A stretch of DNA of 64,000 nucleotides from a bacterium (GTDB taxonomy: Bacteria > UBP6 > JAFGXH01): assembly GCA_027064085.1 (NCBI GenBank), contig JAMOQH010000157.1, forward strand, positions 1 to 64,000, written 5' to 3'. This document shows positions 5,803 to 20,828 of this stretch, piece after piece (the stretch's first letter is position 1; every line of letters begins with the position of its first letter). A program made the translations under genes and the position numbers. Below the pieces are notes generated by a model. That model was given only the letters and a program-made list of their open reading frames with translations, did not search any database and was not told the origin of the DNA.

Positions 5803-6789
5803 CTATTCTTTTTTAATTTTATTTATTTCTCCTTTTGATAATCCTGTTAATTCCATAATTTTATTAATATCTGTTTTAGTATTTATTAATAATTTCACTA
5901 AATTTACAATTTGTTTTTTAGCTTTTTCCTCTCTCTCAAGAGCTTTTTCTTTTTCTTTTTGAGCTTTTTCTATCTTTTCTTTAGCTTCTTCAAGACCTTT
6001 TTGTATCCCTTTGTTTTCAGCTGTGCTTAGTACAGCATACCAATCTCGGTATTCCTTTAAACTTGCTAGATATTTGTTTTGGTCTTTTTTATCCATATTT
6101 ACAAATTCTGCTTTATTAAAAGCATCTTTTATCACTTTATCATCATTAAATATCTTGGGAATTTCATTTAGAGAATCTAAATTATTTAAAAAATAAAACC
6201 ATTTATCCAAATATGTATTTAATTCATTTTCTCTTTTGGTAAATTTAGGCATCTCTACAAATACATAATTTAATTTATCGTAAAATACATCATTATTCTG
6301 GTCTTTTAACTTCACATAATGAAGATAATCTTTATTATTGTTTTCTTTAAACTCAAAATCAAGTATTCCTATACAATAAACAGCACTTAGTTTATAGTCC
6401 CAACTCACCTTTCTTGGACTTCCATCTCTTGTTAATGCAGTTCCATCGTAATATAAGCCTTTTAAACCTTGCTCCTGTATTAAAATACTTGAATAATATA
6501 CCATTCTATCTTTAAAATAGGTTTGCTCTGCTCTTTGCAATTCTACAAGTATGTGATTATTGTCTTCGTCAAGGCAGTAAATATCAAAAACGGTATTCCT
6601 GTCTCTTTTGCTTAAACCCAGCTTTTCTAAGTTTTTAAACTCTAAATCAACTATTTTAGCCCTATTTTCAAGCTCCAAAAAAGCATTGATAAAAGATATA
6701 AGCTGTGGTTTACTTCCTTCTTCACCAAATAGTTTTTTAAAACCATAATCTGTGAATGGATTTATATATTTTGATGTTAAACACATCAT
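5803..6789 (-). CDS. Rpn-type PD-(D/E)XK nuclease family protein (putative transposase)
   Basis: 328 aa of the PDDEXK_2/Rpn family, members of which are often annotated as transposases and act as recombination-promoting nucleases. N-terminal INPFTDYGFKKLFG is a hallmark. The nuclease core shows Asp69 (TVFDIY) and Glu83-x-Gln85 (LVELQ), the D...ExQ form typical of this family. The C-terminal third (about 255-300) is a Lys/Glu-rich coiled coil followed by a short helical domain. AGGAGG lies almost on top of tandem ATGs at 6789 and 6786, so the second ATG may be used. The gene looks intact. No terminal inverted repeats or target duplications are visible around it, and a decayed gene fragment lies upstream, suggesting an accessory island. 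Confidence 0.85.
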   Translation of the reverse strand: MMCLTSKYINPFTDYGFKKLFGEEGSKPQLISFINAFLELENRAKIVDLEFKNLEKLGLSKRDRNTVFDIYCLDEDNNHILVELQRAEQTYFKDRMVYYSSILIQEQGLKGLYYDGTALTRDGSPRKVSWDYKLSAVYCIGILDFEFKENNNKDYLHYVKLKDQNNDVFYDKLNYVFVEMPKFTKRENELNTYLDKWFYFLNNLDSLNEIPKIFNDDKVIKDAFNKAEFVNMDKKDQNKYLASLKEYRDWYAVLSTAENKGIQKGLEEAKEKIEKAQKEKEKALEREEKAKKQIVNLVKLLINTKTDINKIMELTGLSKGEINKIKKE

Positions 6790-11565: not shown

Positions 11566-12730
11566 TACTTATGCTGTAGTAATTACAGTAAAAAAAAATA
11601 TAATCTATAATTATAAATTATTAATAACAGTTTTATTAATAATGCTTTTAACTCAATTTATATATATTATTGTACTGAAAATAAAAAGAAAGAAGCGTAA
11701 AAAAAACCTAAATAAGTTTGAAGACTTATCATCAATTCTTATACCATTAAATCAAAAAATAAACACTCTAAAGGAAGATAAAAAAAATTATATAACAACC
11801 TTATCAGAAATACAAGAAGAAATAAAATTATATAGCGAAGAAATACTTAATATTATAGAAACAGGTGTTTTATTACTTGATAAGGATAGTAATGTTATAT
11901 ATCAAAATAACTGGTTTAAAGAAAACAATATTAACAATTTATCTTTAATAACTAAAATTAAGGATAATAATACTGAAAAAGAAATAAATAATAATTTTTT
12001 TTTAATTAAAAATAAAAAATATGAAAACATGTCTGTTTATACAATTAATGATATAACAGAAATAAAAAAACTAGAACAAGAAATTCAGATAAAAGAAAAA
12101 CTAGCTTATTTAGGAGAAATGTCCGCTTCAATAGCTCATGAATTTAAAAATTCTCTTACAGCGATAAAAGGATTTGCCTCTGCTCTAAGAAGAAAATCAG
12201 ATAACCCAGCAATCGTTAAAAATGTTTCAGCAAACATAGAAGAAGAAGTTGATTATTTCCATAAAATACTAATTGATTACTTAAATTATTCTAAAGAAAT
12301 AAGCTTAATAAAAGAAAATATAAATGTTAAATCTTTTTTTAATGAAATAATTTCAAAGATTTTTAATGATTCAAATATCACAATAACTACACATATTAAA
12401 AATATTTATGCAGATAAAGACAAATTAAAACAGGTTTTTATAAATTTAATAAAAAACTCTGTGGAAGCATCAGACAATTCATCTTTGATCGAAATAGAAA
12501 TAGAAAATATTGATAAAATGACAAAAATTTTAATAAAAGATAAAGGAACCGGCATTACTGAAGAAAATATGAAAAAAATATACAATCCTTTTTTTACTAC
12601 TAAATCCACCGGTACCGGCTTAGGCACATCTATTTCTTATCAAATTATAAAAGCCCATAAAGGAACATTAGAGTACAAAAACAGACCCCATAAAGGAACA
12701 ATTACAATTGTTAACATTCCAAATTCTTAA
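11552..12730 (+). CDS. Membrane-anchored PAS-like sensor histidine kinase
   Basis: 392 aa. A single transmembrane helix lies at about 22-43, followed by a basic stretch and a coiled linker. A PAS-like domain spans about 95-170. The HisKA dimerisation helix carries the phospho-acceptor His196 in SIAHEFKNSLTAIKG. The HATPase_c domain shows the N box (NLIKNSVEAS), G1 (DKGTGI), F box (NPFFTT) and G2 (GTGLGTSI). This is the NtrB/AtoS-like class, which often pairs with sigma54 activators; rpoN is present in the window (45.7 kb), but no response regulator is adjacent. The start overlaps the pseudopilin gene; three consecutive ATGs at 11552-11560 leave the exact start open. The 3' end overlaps the convergent roadblock-like gene by 4 bp. 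Confidence 0.88.
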   Translation: MMMNNTYAVVITVKKNIIYNYKLLITVLLIMLLTQFIYIIVLKIKRKKRKKNLNKFEDLSSILIPLNQKINTLKEDKKNYITTLSEIQEEIKLYSEEILNIIETGVLLLDKDSNVIYQNNWFKENNINNLSLITKIKDNNTEKEINNNFFLIKNKKYENMSVYTINDITEIKKLEQEIQIKEKLAYLGEMSASIAHEFKNSLTAIKGFASALRRKSDNPAIVKNVSANIEEEVDYFHKILIDYLNYSKEISLIKENINVKSFFNEIISKIFNDSNITITTHIKNIYADKDKLKQVFINLIKNSVEASDNSSLIEIEIENIDKMTKILIKDKGTGITEENMKKIYNPFFTTKSTGTGLGTSISYQIIKAHKGTLEYKNRPHKGTITIVNIPNS

Positions 12731-13093: not shown

Positions 13094-13504
13094 CTATATC
13101 TTATCTTTAAAAAATTCCTTATACTTCATATCTGACTTCAAAATATGATTTATTATCCATTCTCTTAAAAAATCAAGTAACTTAATGACCTCTATCATTG
13201 TTATGCCTTTTTTATATGCATCTATAGCTTCAACAACAGTGTTTAGAAACTTTTCATGTTCAACATGTTGTAAAGCTAAGTGGTGATAGTTATACTTTTC
13301 CATCATCTTTTCTTCTGCCTTAAAGTGATATACGGTATATTTTGCTAATTCATTAAAAATAATCTCTATATGCTTTTTATTATTAGTACTATCAACAACA
13401 GAATGCAGTAAGTTTAATAAATCAACAAGCCTTTTATGATGGGTATTAAAAAGTTCAACTCCAACATTAAATTTATCTTTGTCCCATTTTATAATTAAGC
13501 CCAT
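13094..13504 (-). CDS. Bacteriohemerythrin
   Basis: 136-aa non-haem di-iron protein that binds O2 (or NO) in the cytoplasm. The ligand pattern is complete: His in NTHHKRL, HFKAEEKMM (H...E), HVEHEKF (H..H) and WIINHILKSDMKY (H....D). The N-terminal WDKDKFNVGVELFN is typical. In motile microaerophiles such proteins buffer oxygen or feed oxygen sensing. The gene overlaps the upstream unknown gene by one base (TAATG), with AGGAG before the ATG, so translation is coupled. It is followed by the roadblock-like gene. The pairing suggests oxygen or redox input to a signalling module; this is inference. Confidence 0.93.
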   Translation of the reverse strand: MGLIIKWDKDKFNVGVELFNTHHKRLVDLLNLLHSVVDSTNNKKHIEIIFNELAKYTVYHFKAEEKMMEKYNYHHLALQHVEHEKFLNTVVEAIDAYKKGITMIEVIKLLDFLREWIINHILKSDMKYKEFFKDKI

Positions 13505-14133
13505 TATACTCCTATCTCGCCCTTAATAACAGATATAAATTTAGGATATATCGCATTTAAAAACATCCCTACCCCTAATTTTTTTAAATCAATAAGAAAA
13601 CTAAACGAAATCTCAGTATTCTTAATATCACCTAACACCAAAGCTACATCTTCTGATATTTCAAAATATACATATTTAAATTCACTTTCAGAAACATTCA
13701 TCAAGCTAAACTTTGAACGAAGTTCTTGATATACAGAGTAATAAACATCAGTTGCAAATGTATTTTGATTATATCCAGAAATAAGAGTCCCATCATTCTT
13801 CTTAAATAATTCAATAAAAAAGATTCCCCTTCCAAAATCATCTTTAAAATCCATAATTAAGTTATTAAGCTTTAATATATTTAATTTAATATTATTGTTT
13901 TTATTCTCAAAAATAGTTTTTAAATGTCTGATTGCATTTTTATGAGATTTTTCCATAATATCTTTATATACTAAATCTTCTTTTTTAGTATAAACATTTT
14001 TGTTGCTCCAAACGACCTCACCTTCTTGAAAGACCTGAGAAACAACAACATTTACTTTTTTCCTATTAATGAACTCTGTCTGTATATGATAAATTACATC
14101 TTGAATATTAATATTGTGATTTAATAACTGCAT
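13504..14133 (-). CDS. Conserved-looking protein of unknown function in the hemerythrin operon
   Basis: 209 aa from the ATG at 14133, which has AAAGG five bases upstream and lies about 20 nt after the predicted transcription start. A TTG at 14157 would add eight residues but falls before that transcription start. The protein is soluble, mixed alpha/beta, and has an N-terminal half with strands VNVVVSQVFQEGEVVWSNKN and a long Lys/Asn-rich helix, then FGRGIFFIELFKKNDGTLISG and YVYFEISEDVALVLGD. The last part resembles the strand-helix pattern of roadblock-like domains, but I do not recognise a family. It is the first gene of the operon with hemerythrin and the roadblock-like protein. Confidence 0.7.
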   Translation of the reverse strand: MQLLNHNINIQDVIYHIQTEFINRKKVNVVVSQVFQEGEVVWSNKNVYTKKEDLVYKDIMEKSHKNAIRHLKTIFENKNNNIKLNILKLNNLIMDFKDDFGRGIFFIELFKKNDGTLISGYNQNTFATDVYYSVYQELRSKFSLMNVSESEFKYVYFEISEDVALVLGDIKNTEISFSFLIDLKKLGVGMFLNAIYPKFISVIKGEIGV

Positions 14134-14160
14134 CTGAACCTTTAAAAACATAAACAATAA

Positions 14161-15341: not shown

Positions 15342-16436
15342 ATGTTCTTAAAAAACATCAAAATCAATAATTTTAGAAATATTCAAAACGAAGACATTAA
15401 CTTTTCTAAAAACATTAATATAATATACGGAGATAATGGTAATGGAAAAACAAATCTTCTAGAATCTATTTACTACACAACATCTCTCAAGCCTATTAAA
15501 AAAAAACACAAATTAATTCATTTAATAAATGAAAACAGTAAAGCTTCAATAATTAAATCTACTTTTGAAAATAACGACTATAAAGAGATTATAAAAATAG
15601 CAATAACACCAGAAAAGAAAGCTTTAATTTATAATCAAAATAACAATACAAATATTCAATCATATCTCCACAAATTCAAATCGGTTCTTTTTACACCTGA
15701 TGATTTAATGATAATAAAAGGAGAACCACAAAAAAGGAGAGATTTCTTCAACAAAGCAATATTTCATTTAAATCAATATTATTACAGCAATCTTATAGAA
15801 TACAACAAAATATTAAAAACAAGAAATAAGATTTTAAAAGATATAGCAGAAGGAGATAAAAGGCAATTAGCAATACTTGAAATAATCAATGAACAATTTA
15901 CAGATATTTCATTAAAAATATATCAAAATAGAATTAACTACCTAATAAACTATATTCCAATCTTAATAAATACAGTAAATCAATTATCAAAAAAAGATTT
16001 TTTACCATATTTAATATACAAAACAGATTTTAACTATAAAAATAGAGATGACTTCTTAAGTAAATTAAAGTCAAAACAAAAAAGAGAAATATTATACAAA
16101 AGAACATTAACTGGCCCCCACTTTGATGATTATAAAATAATTACCAATGATAAAGAAATAAAATTCTTTGGTAGCCAAGGAGAAATAAGACTTTTTACAC
16201 TAGCCATGAAAATTGCTCATATAATATATGTCAAAGAAACAACAAATAATTACCCTATATTATTATTAGACGACATCTCAAGTGAACTAGACAGTAATAG
16301 AAAAGAGTTTTTATTTAACTTTCTCAAAACAATTGACTCACAAATATTTATAACAACAACTGCCATTAATCATATACCTAAGCTAGAAAACATGGACTTC
16401 CTCGAAATAAAAAATGGAAAAACTAATTGGAAATGA
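15342..16436 (+). CDS. recF: DNA replication and repair protein RecF
   Basis: 364-aa SMC-like ATPase that loads RecA at single-strand gaps together with RecO and RecR. Walker A is GDNGNGKT at 30-37, after FRNI. The ABC signature-like FGSQGEIR and Walker B with D loop (ILLLDDISSELD) are present. KGEPQKRRDFFNK and LTGPHFDD are family marks. There is no clear Shine-Dalgarno sequence; the gene starts one base after the lipoprotein stop, so coupling is likely. In many bacteria recF lies next to dnaN and gyrB near the origin; those genes are not in this window. A parS-like site begins 5 bp after the stop codon. Confidence 0.97.
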   Translation: MFLKNIKINNFRNIQNEDINFSKNINIIYGDNGNGKTNLLESIYYTTSLKPIKKKHKLIHLINENSKASIIKSTFENNDYKEIIKIAITPEKKALIYNQNNNTNIQSYLHKFKSVLFTPDDLMIIKGEPQKRRDFFNKAIFHLNQYYYSNLIEYNKILKTRNKILKDIAEGDKRQLAILEIINEQFTDISLKIYQNRINYLINYIPILINTVNQLSKKDFLPYLIYKTDFNYKNRDDFLSKLKSKQKREILYKRTLTGPHFDDYKIITNDKEIKFFGSQGEIRLFTLAMKIAHIIYVKETTNNYPILLLDDISSELDSNRKEFLFNFLKTIDSQIFITTTAINHIPKLENMDFLEIKNGKTNWK

Positions 16437-16440
16437 AAAA

Positions 16441-16456
16441 TGTTTCACGAGGAACA
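16441..16456 (-). promoter_or_regulatory. parS-like ParB-binding site
   Basis: The minus strand reads TGTTCCTCGTGAAACA. The parS consensus TGTTNCACGTGAAACA differs only at position 7 (T for A), so 15 of 16 positions fit. It lies in the recF/aroA junction, and its centre contains the last Ser codon and the TGA of aroA. An alternative is a weak aroA terminator (TGTT...AACA then TTTTT), but the match to parS is better than expected for that. Confidence 0.55.
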
Positions 16457-17839: not shown

Positions 17840-18331
17840 TCATCCAACAGCGACAATACCTTTTATTTTTGCTAAATCAAGTAATGACGGAGTTATTAAT
17901 ATAGGATATTGAATATCTGATGAAGTACTCAATAAATAAAATTGTTCTTCTATTTTATTTTTAATAAGTATTGTATTTAAAAAATCTAATAAAGTTTCAA
18001 CATCAAACCTAGAGCCATTTATCCTAAAAGCTTTTTTATATTTTTTACCATTTACAACTAGTTCTAGTTTATTTTTTTTTAAACAATTTATTTTTTCTAT
18101 TTTGAATTGAGGATATCGATTAATAACATTATGAGTTAGTTTATTTATTATATAGTGATAATCTTCACAATCATTATATTCAAATAAGTCAAATTGAAAA
18201 ATTGCTAAATTTATATATTTTTTTTCTGGAAAATTTAAAAACTGTTCTTTGATGATATTGATTTCAGTATTTTTAAAATTATTAAACCAATTTATATTAT
18301 CATAATCTTCAAAAATTATTATATCCTTCAT
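17840..18331 (-). CDS. Unknown protein, 163 aa
   Basis: No family recognised. The protein is soluble, rich in Ile, Asn, Lys, Phe and Tyr, with predicted alternating strands and helices (DIIIFEDYDNINWFNNF, INLAIFQFDLFEYND) and a C-terminal part LLDFLNTILIKNKI...QYPILITPSLLDLAKIKGIV. GGGAG lies seven bases before the ATG at 18331 and only one base before the ATG at 18337, so the former is the better start. It stands alone between aroA and the long non-coding region. Its size and composition would suit an immunity or small accessory protein, but nothing proves this. Confidence 0.65.
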   Translation of the reverse strand: MKDIIIFEDYDNINWFNNFKNTEINIIKEQFLNFPEKKYINLAIFQFDLFEYNDCEDYHYIINKLTHNVINRYPQFKIEKINCLKKNKLELVVNGKKYKKAFRINGSRFDVETLLDFLNTILIKNKIEEQFYLLSTSSDIQYPILITPSLLDLAKIKGIVAVG

Positions 18332-18444
18332 AATCATACTCCCAAATAAATATTAGTTTATTATATTTATTTATATACTTAAATCAATCTTTTTATTAAT
18401 TTATTATATATCTTTTTCTTTTATTGTTATGCTTGGGGGTAAAA

Positions 18445-18690
18445 TGTGGAAAACTTTTATAGTTAAGTAATTTCAGTGTATTAGACGCGAAAACACTGTT
18501 GGTAACTTTGTTGATAAGTCGTTATGTAGCTGTTATTAACTTCTTTAGTTAACACTGGTTAAGAGTATTTTACCAAGAATTAACTAATTAAAGATTTAAT
18601 CAAGATTAAGGAAAGGAGATATTAATCTTTCTTTAGTATTTAGTAATTGTTTATAAGGTGTTAATTAAATATTGATAAGTTTGTTGATAA
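18445..18690 (+). other. DnaA-box-like cluster in a long AT-rich non-coding region (candidate origin)
   Basis: The stretch 18338-19103 (766 bp) has no substantial gene. It contains TGTGGAAAA (18445-18453) and two tandem pairs of DnaA-box-like 9-mers in the same direction with a 12-bp step: TGTTGGTAA/TGTTGATAA (18497 and 18509) and TATTGATAA/TGTTGATAA (18670 and 18682). The canonical box on this strand is TGTGGATAA. The context of each pair is alike (TTTGTTGATAAGT). Very AT-rich tracts flank them. With recF and a parS-like site within 3 kb, this could be a chromosomal origin or a DnaA-binding control region. dnaA, dnaN and gyrB are not seen here. Confidence 0.4.
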
Positions 18691-18798
18691 GTTTTTATGC
18701 TGATTGTAATCTAATAATAATAATAACTAGTACTTATAGTAAATAAAGAGTTAAAAAAGTATTTTTAAATCTAAAGATGGTAATAAATTTGAAAGTCG

Positions 18799-18867
18799 TC
18801 ATCGTAATAATAAAAAGAAAAGTGCATTTACTTCTTCTTTACTCATAAAAACTCCTTCCTTTTCCAT
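18799..18867 (-). CDS. Possible 22-aa leader peptide or gene remnant
   Basis: The minus-strand reading is MEKEGVFMSKEEVNALFFLL plus LR and a TGA. Both in-frame ATGs (18867 and 18846) have a GGAG ribosome binding site, and an extended -10 (TGTTATACT) lies about 40 bp upstream. Two well-placed ribosome binding sites in an otherwise empty region are suggestive, but the product is too short to judge. Confidence 0.25.
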   Translation of the reverse strand: MEKEGVFMSKEEVNALFFLLLR

Positions 18868-19103
18868 TTAAACTCCTAAAAAAATCAAGAAAATCCTATT
18901 AAGAGTATAACATAAAATAGGACATTTCTACTTTGCTCCTACAAGCTATTTATTGTTATTGTAATTTATTCTATTATATGATAAACTAATAATATAATGA
19001 AGCTAGAGTGTTTCATTAACCGTTAATTATATTAAACAGGTGAACTTATACCGTTTATTTCGTAAAATAAAATCAAAAAGCTTACCTAAAAAAGAGGAAA
19101 AAC

Positions 19104-20828
19104 ATGGAAAATTTTAAAAAACTAGGCCTATCTGCAAAAACTTTGGAAACTTTAAAAATAAAAGGTTTTGAAGAACCAACTGAAATACAAGAATTAGTAA
19201 TTCCTGTAATTTTAAAAGATGAAACAGATGTCATTGCACAAGCTCAAACAGGAACAGGAAAAACAGCTGCATTCGGCCTTCCATTAATAGAGAAATTAAA
19301 AAAAATAGGTAAAGTACAAGCTATTATTATTGCACCAACAAGAGAATTAGTTTTACAAGTAACTGAAGAAATAAATTCATTGAAAGGTAGCAACAAGCTT
19401 GACATTGTAACAATTTATGGCGGTCAATCTATTGATATTCAACTTAAAAGATTAAGAAGAGGAGTTGATATTGTTGTTGGAACCCCTGGAAGAGTAATTG
19501 ATCATTTAAATAGAGGAACATTAAATATAAGTGAAGTAAAATACTTTATACTTGACGAAGCTGATGAAATGTTAAATATGGGCTTTTTGGATGATATTGA
19601 AATTATCTTTAAGAAGACACCTAAAGACAAAAGAGTTATGTTGTTTTCAGCAACAATGCCCGACAGAATAAGAAGACTTGCTGAAAACTATATGGGAAAA
19701 TATACTCATGCTAAAACTAAAACTAAATTAACAACTAATTTAACAGAACAAATATATTTTGAAGTTAATGGAAGAGATAAACTAGAAGCTTTAACTAGAA
19801 TTATTGATATTGAGACTAAATTTTATGGAATTGTTTTTTGTAGAACCAAAGTCGAAGTAGATGAAATTACTAGTAAATTAACAGAAAAGGGATATTTTGT
19901 CGATGGTTTACATGGAGACATTTCACAAGCACAAAGAGAAAGAACCCTCAAGCGTTTTAAACAAGAAATTATTTCTGTTTTAATTGCAACAGATGTTGCA
20001 GCAAGAGGAATTGATGTAGATAACTTAACTCATGTTATAAATTATTCTATACCTCAGAATCCAGAGGCTTATGTTCATAGAATAGGTAGAACCGGAAGAG
20101 CAGGAAAAAAAGGAACTGCAATTACCTTTATTACTCCATCTGAATTTAGAAAGCTAGGATTTATTAAAAAAGTAACAAATACTGATATTAAAAAAGAAGA
20201 AGTTCCGAATATTAAAGACATAATTAGTTCTAAAAAAGAGAAAATTGAAGCAGATATTAAAGATAATATACAAGAAAATAAAAATAAAGCTTATGTTGAG
20301 TGGGCTAAATCAATAATTAAATCAAATGAAGATAAAACTACTGAAGACATAATGGCTTCTATTTTGAAACTTGCTTATGGTAAAGAGTTAAATGAAGGAA
20401 ATTATAATAAAATCAAACCAGTAAGAGAAAGAGGAGAAAAGAGAGAAAAAATAAAATTAAATGGAAAATCAAGATTATTTATCGCAAAAGGTTCTTCTGC
20501 AAGTATAGATACAAAATCTTTAATAGAGTTTATTGCTAAGAAAGCTAATGTTTCTAAAAAATTAATTGAGGATGTTGATATTCATGAAAATTTCTCTTTT
20601 GTAACTGTTCCATTTAAAGAAGCTAAGCAAATTTTAGATGTATTTTCAAAAGTTAAGGCAGGTAAAAAACCATTAATTGAAGAAGCAAATCAAAAAAGAA
20701 ATTCTAATGGTGGTAATTCAAGAGATAGAAACCGAGGAAGAAGTAGAGATAGTTATAAAGGTAATAAGGGTTCAAAAACAGAGGGGGGAAATAATAACAG
20801 AAGAAACTCTAAGTATAGAAAAAAATAA
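19104..20828 (+). CDS. DEAD-box ATP-dependent RNA helicase with C-terminal RNA-binding tail
   Basis: 574-aa DeaD/CsdA-type helicase that remodels RNA in ribosome assembly and mRNA decay. The Q motif (GFEEPTEIQ, 21-29), Walker A (AQTGTGKT, 47-54), DEAD near 151, SAT (LFSATMP), and HRIGRTGRAG are intact. Residues about 453-530 form a DbpA-like RNA-binding domain (RLFIAKGSSASID...VTVPFKEA). The tail is an Arg/Gly/Asn-rich basic disordered stretch (SRDRNRGRSRDSYKG). AGAGGAAAAAC precedes the ATG. The upstream leader appears long (about 100 nt after a TATAAT at 18993-18998), as in cold-inducible helicase genes; regulation is inferred only. deaD would be the closest symbol. Confidence 0.93.
   Translation: MENFKKLGLSAKTLETLKIKGFEEPTEIQELVIPVILKDETDVIAQAQTGTGKTAAFGLPLIEKLKKIGKVQAIIIAPTRELVLQVTEEINSLKGSNKLDIVTIYGGQSIDIQLKRLRRGVDIVVGTPGRVIDHLNRGTLNISEVKYFILDEADEMLNMGFLDDIEIIFKKTPKDKRVMLFSATMPDRIRRLAENYMGKYTHAKTKTKLTTNLTEQIYFEVNGRDKLEALTRIIDIETKFYGIVFCRTKVEVDEITSKLTEKGYFVDGLHGDISQAQRERTLKRFKQEIISVLIATDVAARGIDVDNLTHVINYSIPQNPEAYVHRIGRTGRAGKKGTAITFITPSEFRKLGFIKKVTNTDIKKEEVPNIKDIISSKKEKIEADIKDNIQENKNKAYVEWAKSIIKSNEDKTTEDIMASILKLAYGKELNEGNYNKIKPVRERGEKREKIKLNGKSRLFIAKGSSASIDTKSLIEFIAKKANVSKKLIEDVDIHENFSFVTVPFKEAKQILDVFSKVKAGKKPLIEEANQKRNSNGGNSRDRNRGRSRDSYKGNKGSKTEGGNNNRRNSKYRKK

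Follow-up and report, generated by a model that had tools for sequence, protein, structure and literature searches.

In this study, which was based on a window of 64,000 nucleotides from the draft genome of an uncultured, very AT-rich bacterium and on a comparison with its relatives, we found that a gene-free gap of 766 bp most likely holds the chromosomal origin of replication (oriC), or its core, detached from dnaA. The computed features of the locus are the DnaA boxes and their non-random clustering, a change-point of the strand skew, a parS-like site, linkage to recF and an AT-rich flank of low stability. The original prediction had offered two readings, oriC and a DnaA titration or control locus. 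The first of them fares better, as the skew change-point is of the origin type and the boxes match those in the dnaA-dnaN spacers of the phylum. The origin is probably of an ordinary kind, set in an unusual place and without a recognisable DnaA-trio module.

DnaA boxes in the gene-free gap

The gap, which is flanked by an ORF of 165 aa and a CshA-type helicase gene, had been described as the longest gene-poor stretch in the window. It is indeed the longest ORF-free gap (766 bp, with a runner-up of 661 bp), but approximately 18806-18945 is an insertion-sequence remnant rather than plain intergenic sequence. Six DnaA-box-like 9-mers, all on the minus strand, span 18445-18690, each with no more than one mismatch to TTATCAACA/TTATCCACA; only two of the six (18509 and 18682) are perfect copies of TTATCAACA. 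The two tandem pairs of 9-mers that had been predicted, with a step of 12 bp within each pair, were confirmed and lie 173 bp from one another, and further single boxes were found at 18445 and 18648. The features are as follows:

17840-18337, minus strand: 165-aa ORF, left neighbour, family not recognised
18338-18435, no strand: AT-rich stretch (14% G+C), candidate DNA-unwinding element
18445-18453, minus strand: DnaA box next to the AT-rich stretch, TGTGGAAAA on plus, TTTTCCACA on minus; 52 bp to the following box
18497-18517, minus strand: tandem box pair 1, minus reading TTATCAACA-AAG-TTACCAACA
18497-18505, minus strand: first box of pair 1, TGTTGGTAA on plus, TTACCAACA on minus
18509-18517, minus strand: second box of pair 1, TGTTGATAA on plus, TTATCAACA on minus
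18531-18539, minus strand: degenerate box TTAATAACA with two mismatches, 22 bp from pair 1, a spacing as in the sister-genus array
18648-18656, minus strand: DnaA-box-like 9-mer, TGTTTATAA on plus, TTATAAACA on minus
18670-18690, minus strand: tandem box pair 2, minus reading TTATCAACA-AAC-TTATCAATA
18670-18678, minus strand: first box of pair 2, TATTGATAA on plus, TTATCAATA on minus
18682-18690, minus strand: second box of pair 2, TGTTGATAA on plus, TTATCAACA on minus
18711-18727, minus strand: trio-like TTATTATTATTATTAG tract, placed on the side of the boxes opposite to that expected of a known unwinding module (geometry compared with G001, G002 and G013)
18806-18945, minus strand: insertion-sequence end and truncated transposase start (MEKEGVFMSKEEV...), a remnant of ~140 bp outside the origin
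19104-20828, plus strand: cshA/deaD-type DEAD-box RNA helicase gene, right neighbour

Dinucleotide shuffles of the 766 bp (n = 3000) contained 0.6 boxes on average and five at most, and the 12-bp box pair appeared in none of the 3000. The contig-wide scans covered 1.66 Mb, which is 45% of the 3.65-Mb assembly, an incomplete draft in which ~5% of the genome is missing; in these 1.66 Mb, the strongest intergenic cluster of DnaA boxes, as expected of an oriC, was the one at 18445-18690. The sole denser cluster (C81:8312-8452, locus L297 on G000:C81), which is composed of the boxes TTATGCACA, TGTGGATAA, TTATCCACA and TAATCCACA upstream of an S-layer gene, was rejected as a rival origin; its contig carries S-layer and HD-GYP genes and is probably a clostridial contaminant.

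Pairs with the 12-bp step and no more than one mismatch occur at four places in the whole 3.65-Mb assembly: two in this gap, one on C138 and one on C117. The latter two are signal-peptide codons (TTG TTG ATA ACT, read as LLIT; 12 bp equal four codons), and the pair by itself was therefore rejected as a signature of DnaA, while the two pairs in the gap are thus the sole non-coding ones in the assembly. The near-identity with signal-peptide codons raises the question of whether the gap holds a protein-coding fossil, in which codon repetition as in lipoprotein signal peptides had produced the 12-bp step. We consider this scarcely credible, because the frames that contain the pairs are short (~25-30 codons) and have neither an ATG nor a ribosome-binding site, and because the remaining boxes stand outside any codon-repeat context.

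Other searches of the gap detected no RNA family in Rfam and no promoter or terminator that exceeded the shuffles, and in the comparison of the whole gap with relatives, convincing sequence homology was limited to the boxes and the insertion-sequence remnant. The left neighbouring ORF had no Pfam, NCBIfam or PHROG match. Within the remnant, 18844-18936 is 96% identical to C157:67656-67748, with more copies in C140. Truncated copies of this one insertion-sequence end, ~96% identical and with the rest of the element missing, lie at 18806-18945, C157:67624-67748, C140:16856 and C140:28765. A similar end in a relative precedes an ORF that we take to resemble an ISNCY-type transposase.

An easily melted AT-rich stretch, another feature of oriC, lies beside the boxes. 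In nearest-neighbour stability, the 100 bp from 18311 rank second lowest across the 81-kb contig, within its least stable 0.02%. No other 100 bp of the locus are less stable, and they overlap the start of the 165-aa ORF. In a set of 2070 predicted origins, 85% were reported to have the BUS unwinding module, which comprises a DnaA box, a spacer of no more than 16 bp and at least three DnaA-trios (PMC8287927). According to this definition, the pattern box-spacer-TTATTATTA was absent from the locus and from the assembled genome, also when the minus strand was read.

Strand skew, recF and the parS-like site

The skew was measured as the third-position GC skew corrected for gene strand, and change-points were tested on 32 contigs. 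The contigs were bimodal, with b ~ +0.2 or -0.2, as expected of two replichores. As the original prediction had proposed, GC skew served as a check of the origin, and the outcome favoured it: the strongest change-point among the 32 contigs was that of C157, the contig of the window (dLL 13.0, compared to 6.4 for the next contig), it has the sign of an origin and it brackets the box locus. The best break was at 16436, nearly equalled up to 20853 (16.4-20.8 kb), and the box locus itself reached a dLL of 11.5. The sign fits an origin in that rpsL and rplB are on the G-rich strand; the raw plus-strand skew of four relatives likewise changes from negative to positive at the dnaA-dnaN spacer, and two of them show this among same-strand genes too. 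The skew minimum expected of an oriC is thus found at the locus, though its right side is weak: b was -0.29+/-0.06 on the left and +0.07+/-0.04 on the right (18.4-64 kb), which is near zero or mosaic and not the +0.2 seen for a replichore. Along C157:18400-81342, the skew is ~0, then +0.23 at 50-64 kb and then -0.08, while the other contigs are uniform. This mosaic suggests that the DNA near the origin was recently rearranged, which would fit the departure of dnaA-dnaN from it. The orientation of the genes showed no divergence away from the box locus. The skew of the sister-genus contigs, which are short, was weak.

The proximity of recF and of a parS-like site to the gap, which had also been predicted, was borne out:

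15342-16436, plus strand: recF (TIGR00611, 301 bits), clustered with dnaA-dnaN in relatives of the phylum
16441-16456, plus strand: parS-like site TGTTTCACGAGGAACA, directly behind recF, with one mismatch to the 16-bp palindrome TGTTNCACGTGNAACA, located in the central CACGTG

With up to one mismatch, this is the sole parS-like site in the 1.66 Mb, where permuted control palindromes average 0.14. The gathering of parS sites near oriC is established (PMC7022226), and the candidate site would be the parS palindrome that a ParABS system has near the origin; parB was not located in this genome. A one-mismatch parS lies inside recF in seven genomes of another family of the phylum (f2), and a perfect parS lies up to 7 kb from dnaN in G012 and G013. 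Hence, recF and a nearby parS mark the origin region in the phylum. Elsewhere in the window, the protein encoded at 13504-14157 weakly resembles, with a score under the curated cut-off, the N-terminus of RomY, which is known as a regulator of polarity in Myxococcota.

In E. coli, datA and DARS are DnaA-titration or reactivation loci that consist of intergenic clusters of DnaA boxes, and the present locus resembles them in this respect. The boxes here are clustered without a trio module, the array lies upstream of a helicase gene, and in the sister genus box pairs also occur upstream of arsenic-operon genes, all of which would suit a titration or control locus, or a promoter region of cshA under the control of DnaA, rather than an origin. 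Such a reading is quite improbable, as it accounts for neither the skew change-point nor the parS-like site nor the linkage to recF, and no other cluster in the scanned 1.66 Mb could then serve as the origin. Unlike this locus, datA and DARS are not known to coincide with a switch of the skew or to have parS and recF as neighbours.

The boxes of the phylum and the array of the sister genus

The dnaA-dnaN genes of this genome are on contig C80, where they are 9 bp apart and the space in front of dnaA measures 76 bp; no cluster of boxes was found around them. Linkage to dnaA and dnaN is therefore missing at the proposed origin; since this linkage is common but not universal among origins, it does not strictly define an oriC. 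The position of dnaA-dnaN on another contig that has no boxes there indicates that dnaA has left the origin. The f2 family has dnaA, dnaN and recF side by side, and TTTTCAACA boxes stand in the dnaA-dnaN spacer of nine genomes, of which G013 has TTATCAACA as well; the box word of the phylum in these spacers is TTWTCAACA, which the boxes of the gap match. The RDHST motif of domain IV is kept in the DnaA of this genome. Judged by their sequence, the boxes are of the origin type used in the lineage. The word TT(T/A)TCAACA is the box of phytoplasmas (PMC3322544), and TTATCAACA is present in the predicted origin of the linear chromosome of Cyanothece (PMC4674748). It is probable that dnaA-dnaN became separated from oriC in this family, while the other family of the phylum keeps dnaA, the box spacer, dnaN and recF together.

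Two genomes of the sister genus, G001 and G002, have in common seven perfect boxes arranged in a non-coding array, which is 89% identical over 314 bp:

L206 (G002:C118) 12419-12603, mixed strands: seven-box array of G002, perfect boxes in both orientations
L209 (G001:C6) 5943-6127, mixed strands: seven-box array of G001, perfect boxes in both orientations

The genes that flank the array differ between G001 and G002, with neither dnaA nor recF adjacent. The last box of the array is followed by a spacer and the trio-like TTATTATTATTAATAA; this fits the module of box, spacer and DnaA-trios (PMC8287927), so that the array is very likely the oriC of the sister genus. Among 21 genomes, the pattern box-spacer-TTATTATTA was found only in the arrays of G001 and G002 and in the dnaA-dnaN spacer of G013. 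A nuclease of the PD-(D/E)XK (Rpn-type) transposase family, encoded at 5803-6789 of the window, has a 57% identical relative beside the array on G002:C118. Non-coding tandem box pairs also lie directly upstream of arsenic-operon genes (arsR and a thioredoxin-like gene) of the sister genus (L206 14359-14379 and 16552-16572; L208 2015-2035); those of G002 are 2-4 kb from its array and may be DnaA-regulated or outliers of the origin.

The array of the gap shares with that of the sister genus the box word, the tandem pairs with 3-bp gaps, the spacing 22/12/52 and an AT-rich flank at the same end, where it adjoins the box at 18445. The sister array differs in that its boxes are perfect and face both ways, in its trio-like TTATTATTATTAATAA module and in not lying beside recF. 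For a four-box template (0/22/34/86, gaps 22/12/52), a subset of the sister array that was picked after inspection, the sole match with up to seven mismatches in the 1.66 Mb was this locus (4/36 positions mismatched). Of 3000 templates whose outer spacings were randomised, none matched it equally well. With the full, unselected seven-box template, 20 of 2000 gap-shuffled templates were equally good, and the locus tied with a chance match inside a gene. A template match at C159:5110, which is inside a transporter gene, was discarded. The two arrays are likely homologous. No counterpart of the sister array besides this locus was found in the assembly, and the counterpart of its DsbD neighbour, on C105, has no boxes upstream.

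The latter comparison bears on the view that the array and parS mark a former, decayed oriC and that the active one is in the unassembled part and closer in form to the seven-box array with a trio module. The assembly is ~95% complete and has no other counterpart of that array, and at the locus itself the trio module is missing, the boxes are degenerate and insertion-sequence debris lies within the same gap. We regard a former origin as unlikely, because the sharp skew change-point is located here, the parS-like site and recF are still present and the spacing of the boxes is still non-random.

Comparison with other origins and proposed working

The locus, which is probably the active oriC, resembles the dnaA-dnaN-type origins of the f2 relatives in its TTWTCAACA boxes, AT-rich flank, nearby recF and parS and the change of skew sign, whereas here dnaA and dnaN are not adjacent, the boxes are on one strand and no trio module was found. 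Origins apart from dnaA are known: in gammaproteobacteria the origin is at gidA-mioC (PMC10225481), and Synechocystis and Prochlorococcus have no boxes near dnaA (PMC4674748). The present case is similar in that dnaA is distant and its locus has no boxes, but unlike them, recF and the parS-like site remain with the origin and dnaA-dnaN are gone.

In the working that we propose, DnaA from the distant dnaA-dnaN locus would bind the same-strand boxes at 18445-18690 and oligomerise towards the low-coordinate end. The AT-rich region at ~18311-18435 would then be opened, and the helicase would be loaded there. ParB may bind the parS-like site beside recF, 2 kb away, and gather the new origins for segregation. 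More tentatively, it is possible that this is a working origin without dnaA-dnaN and the DnaA-trio module, which uses one-way TTATCAACA-type boxes, is being rebuilt over a short evolutionary time (the sister genus has another arrangement and other neighbours) and retains recF and parS as its landmark.

A probable origin has thus been located in a draft genome in which dnaA, normally used as the marker, would mislead, and origin finders that rely on dnaA would miss such an origin. In this family, oriC and dnaA appear to have become separated, with recF and parS left at the origin. With its intact, moved and altered origins, the phylum offers material for comparisons of how much of an origin a bacterium can do without.
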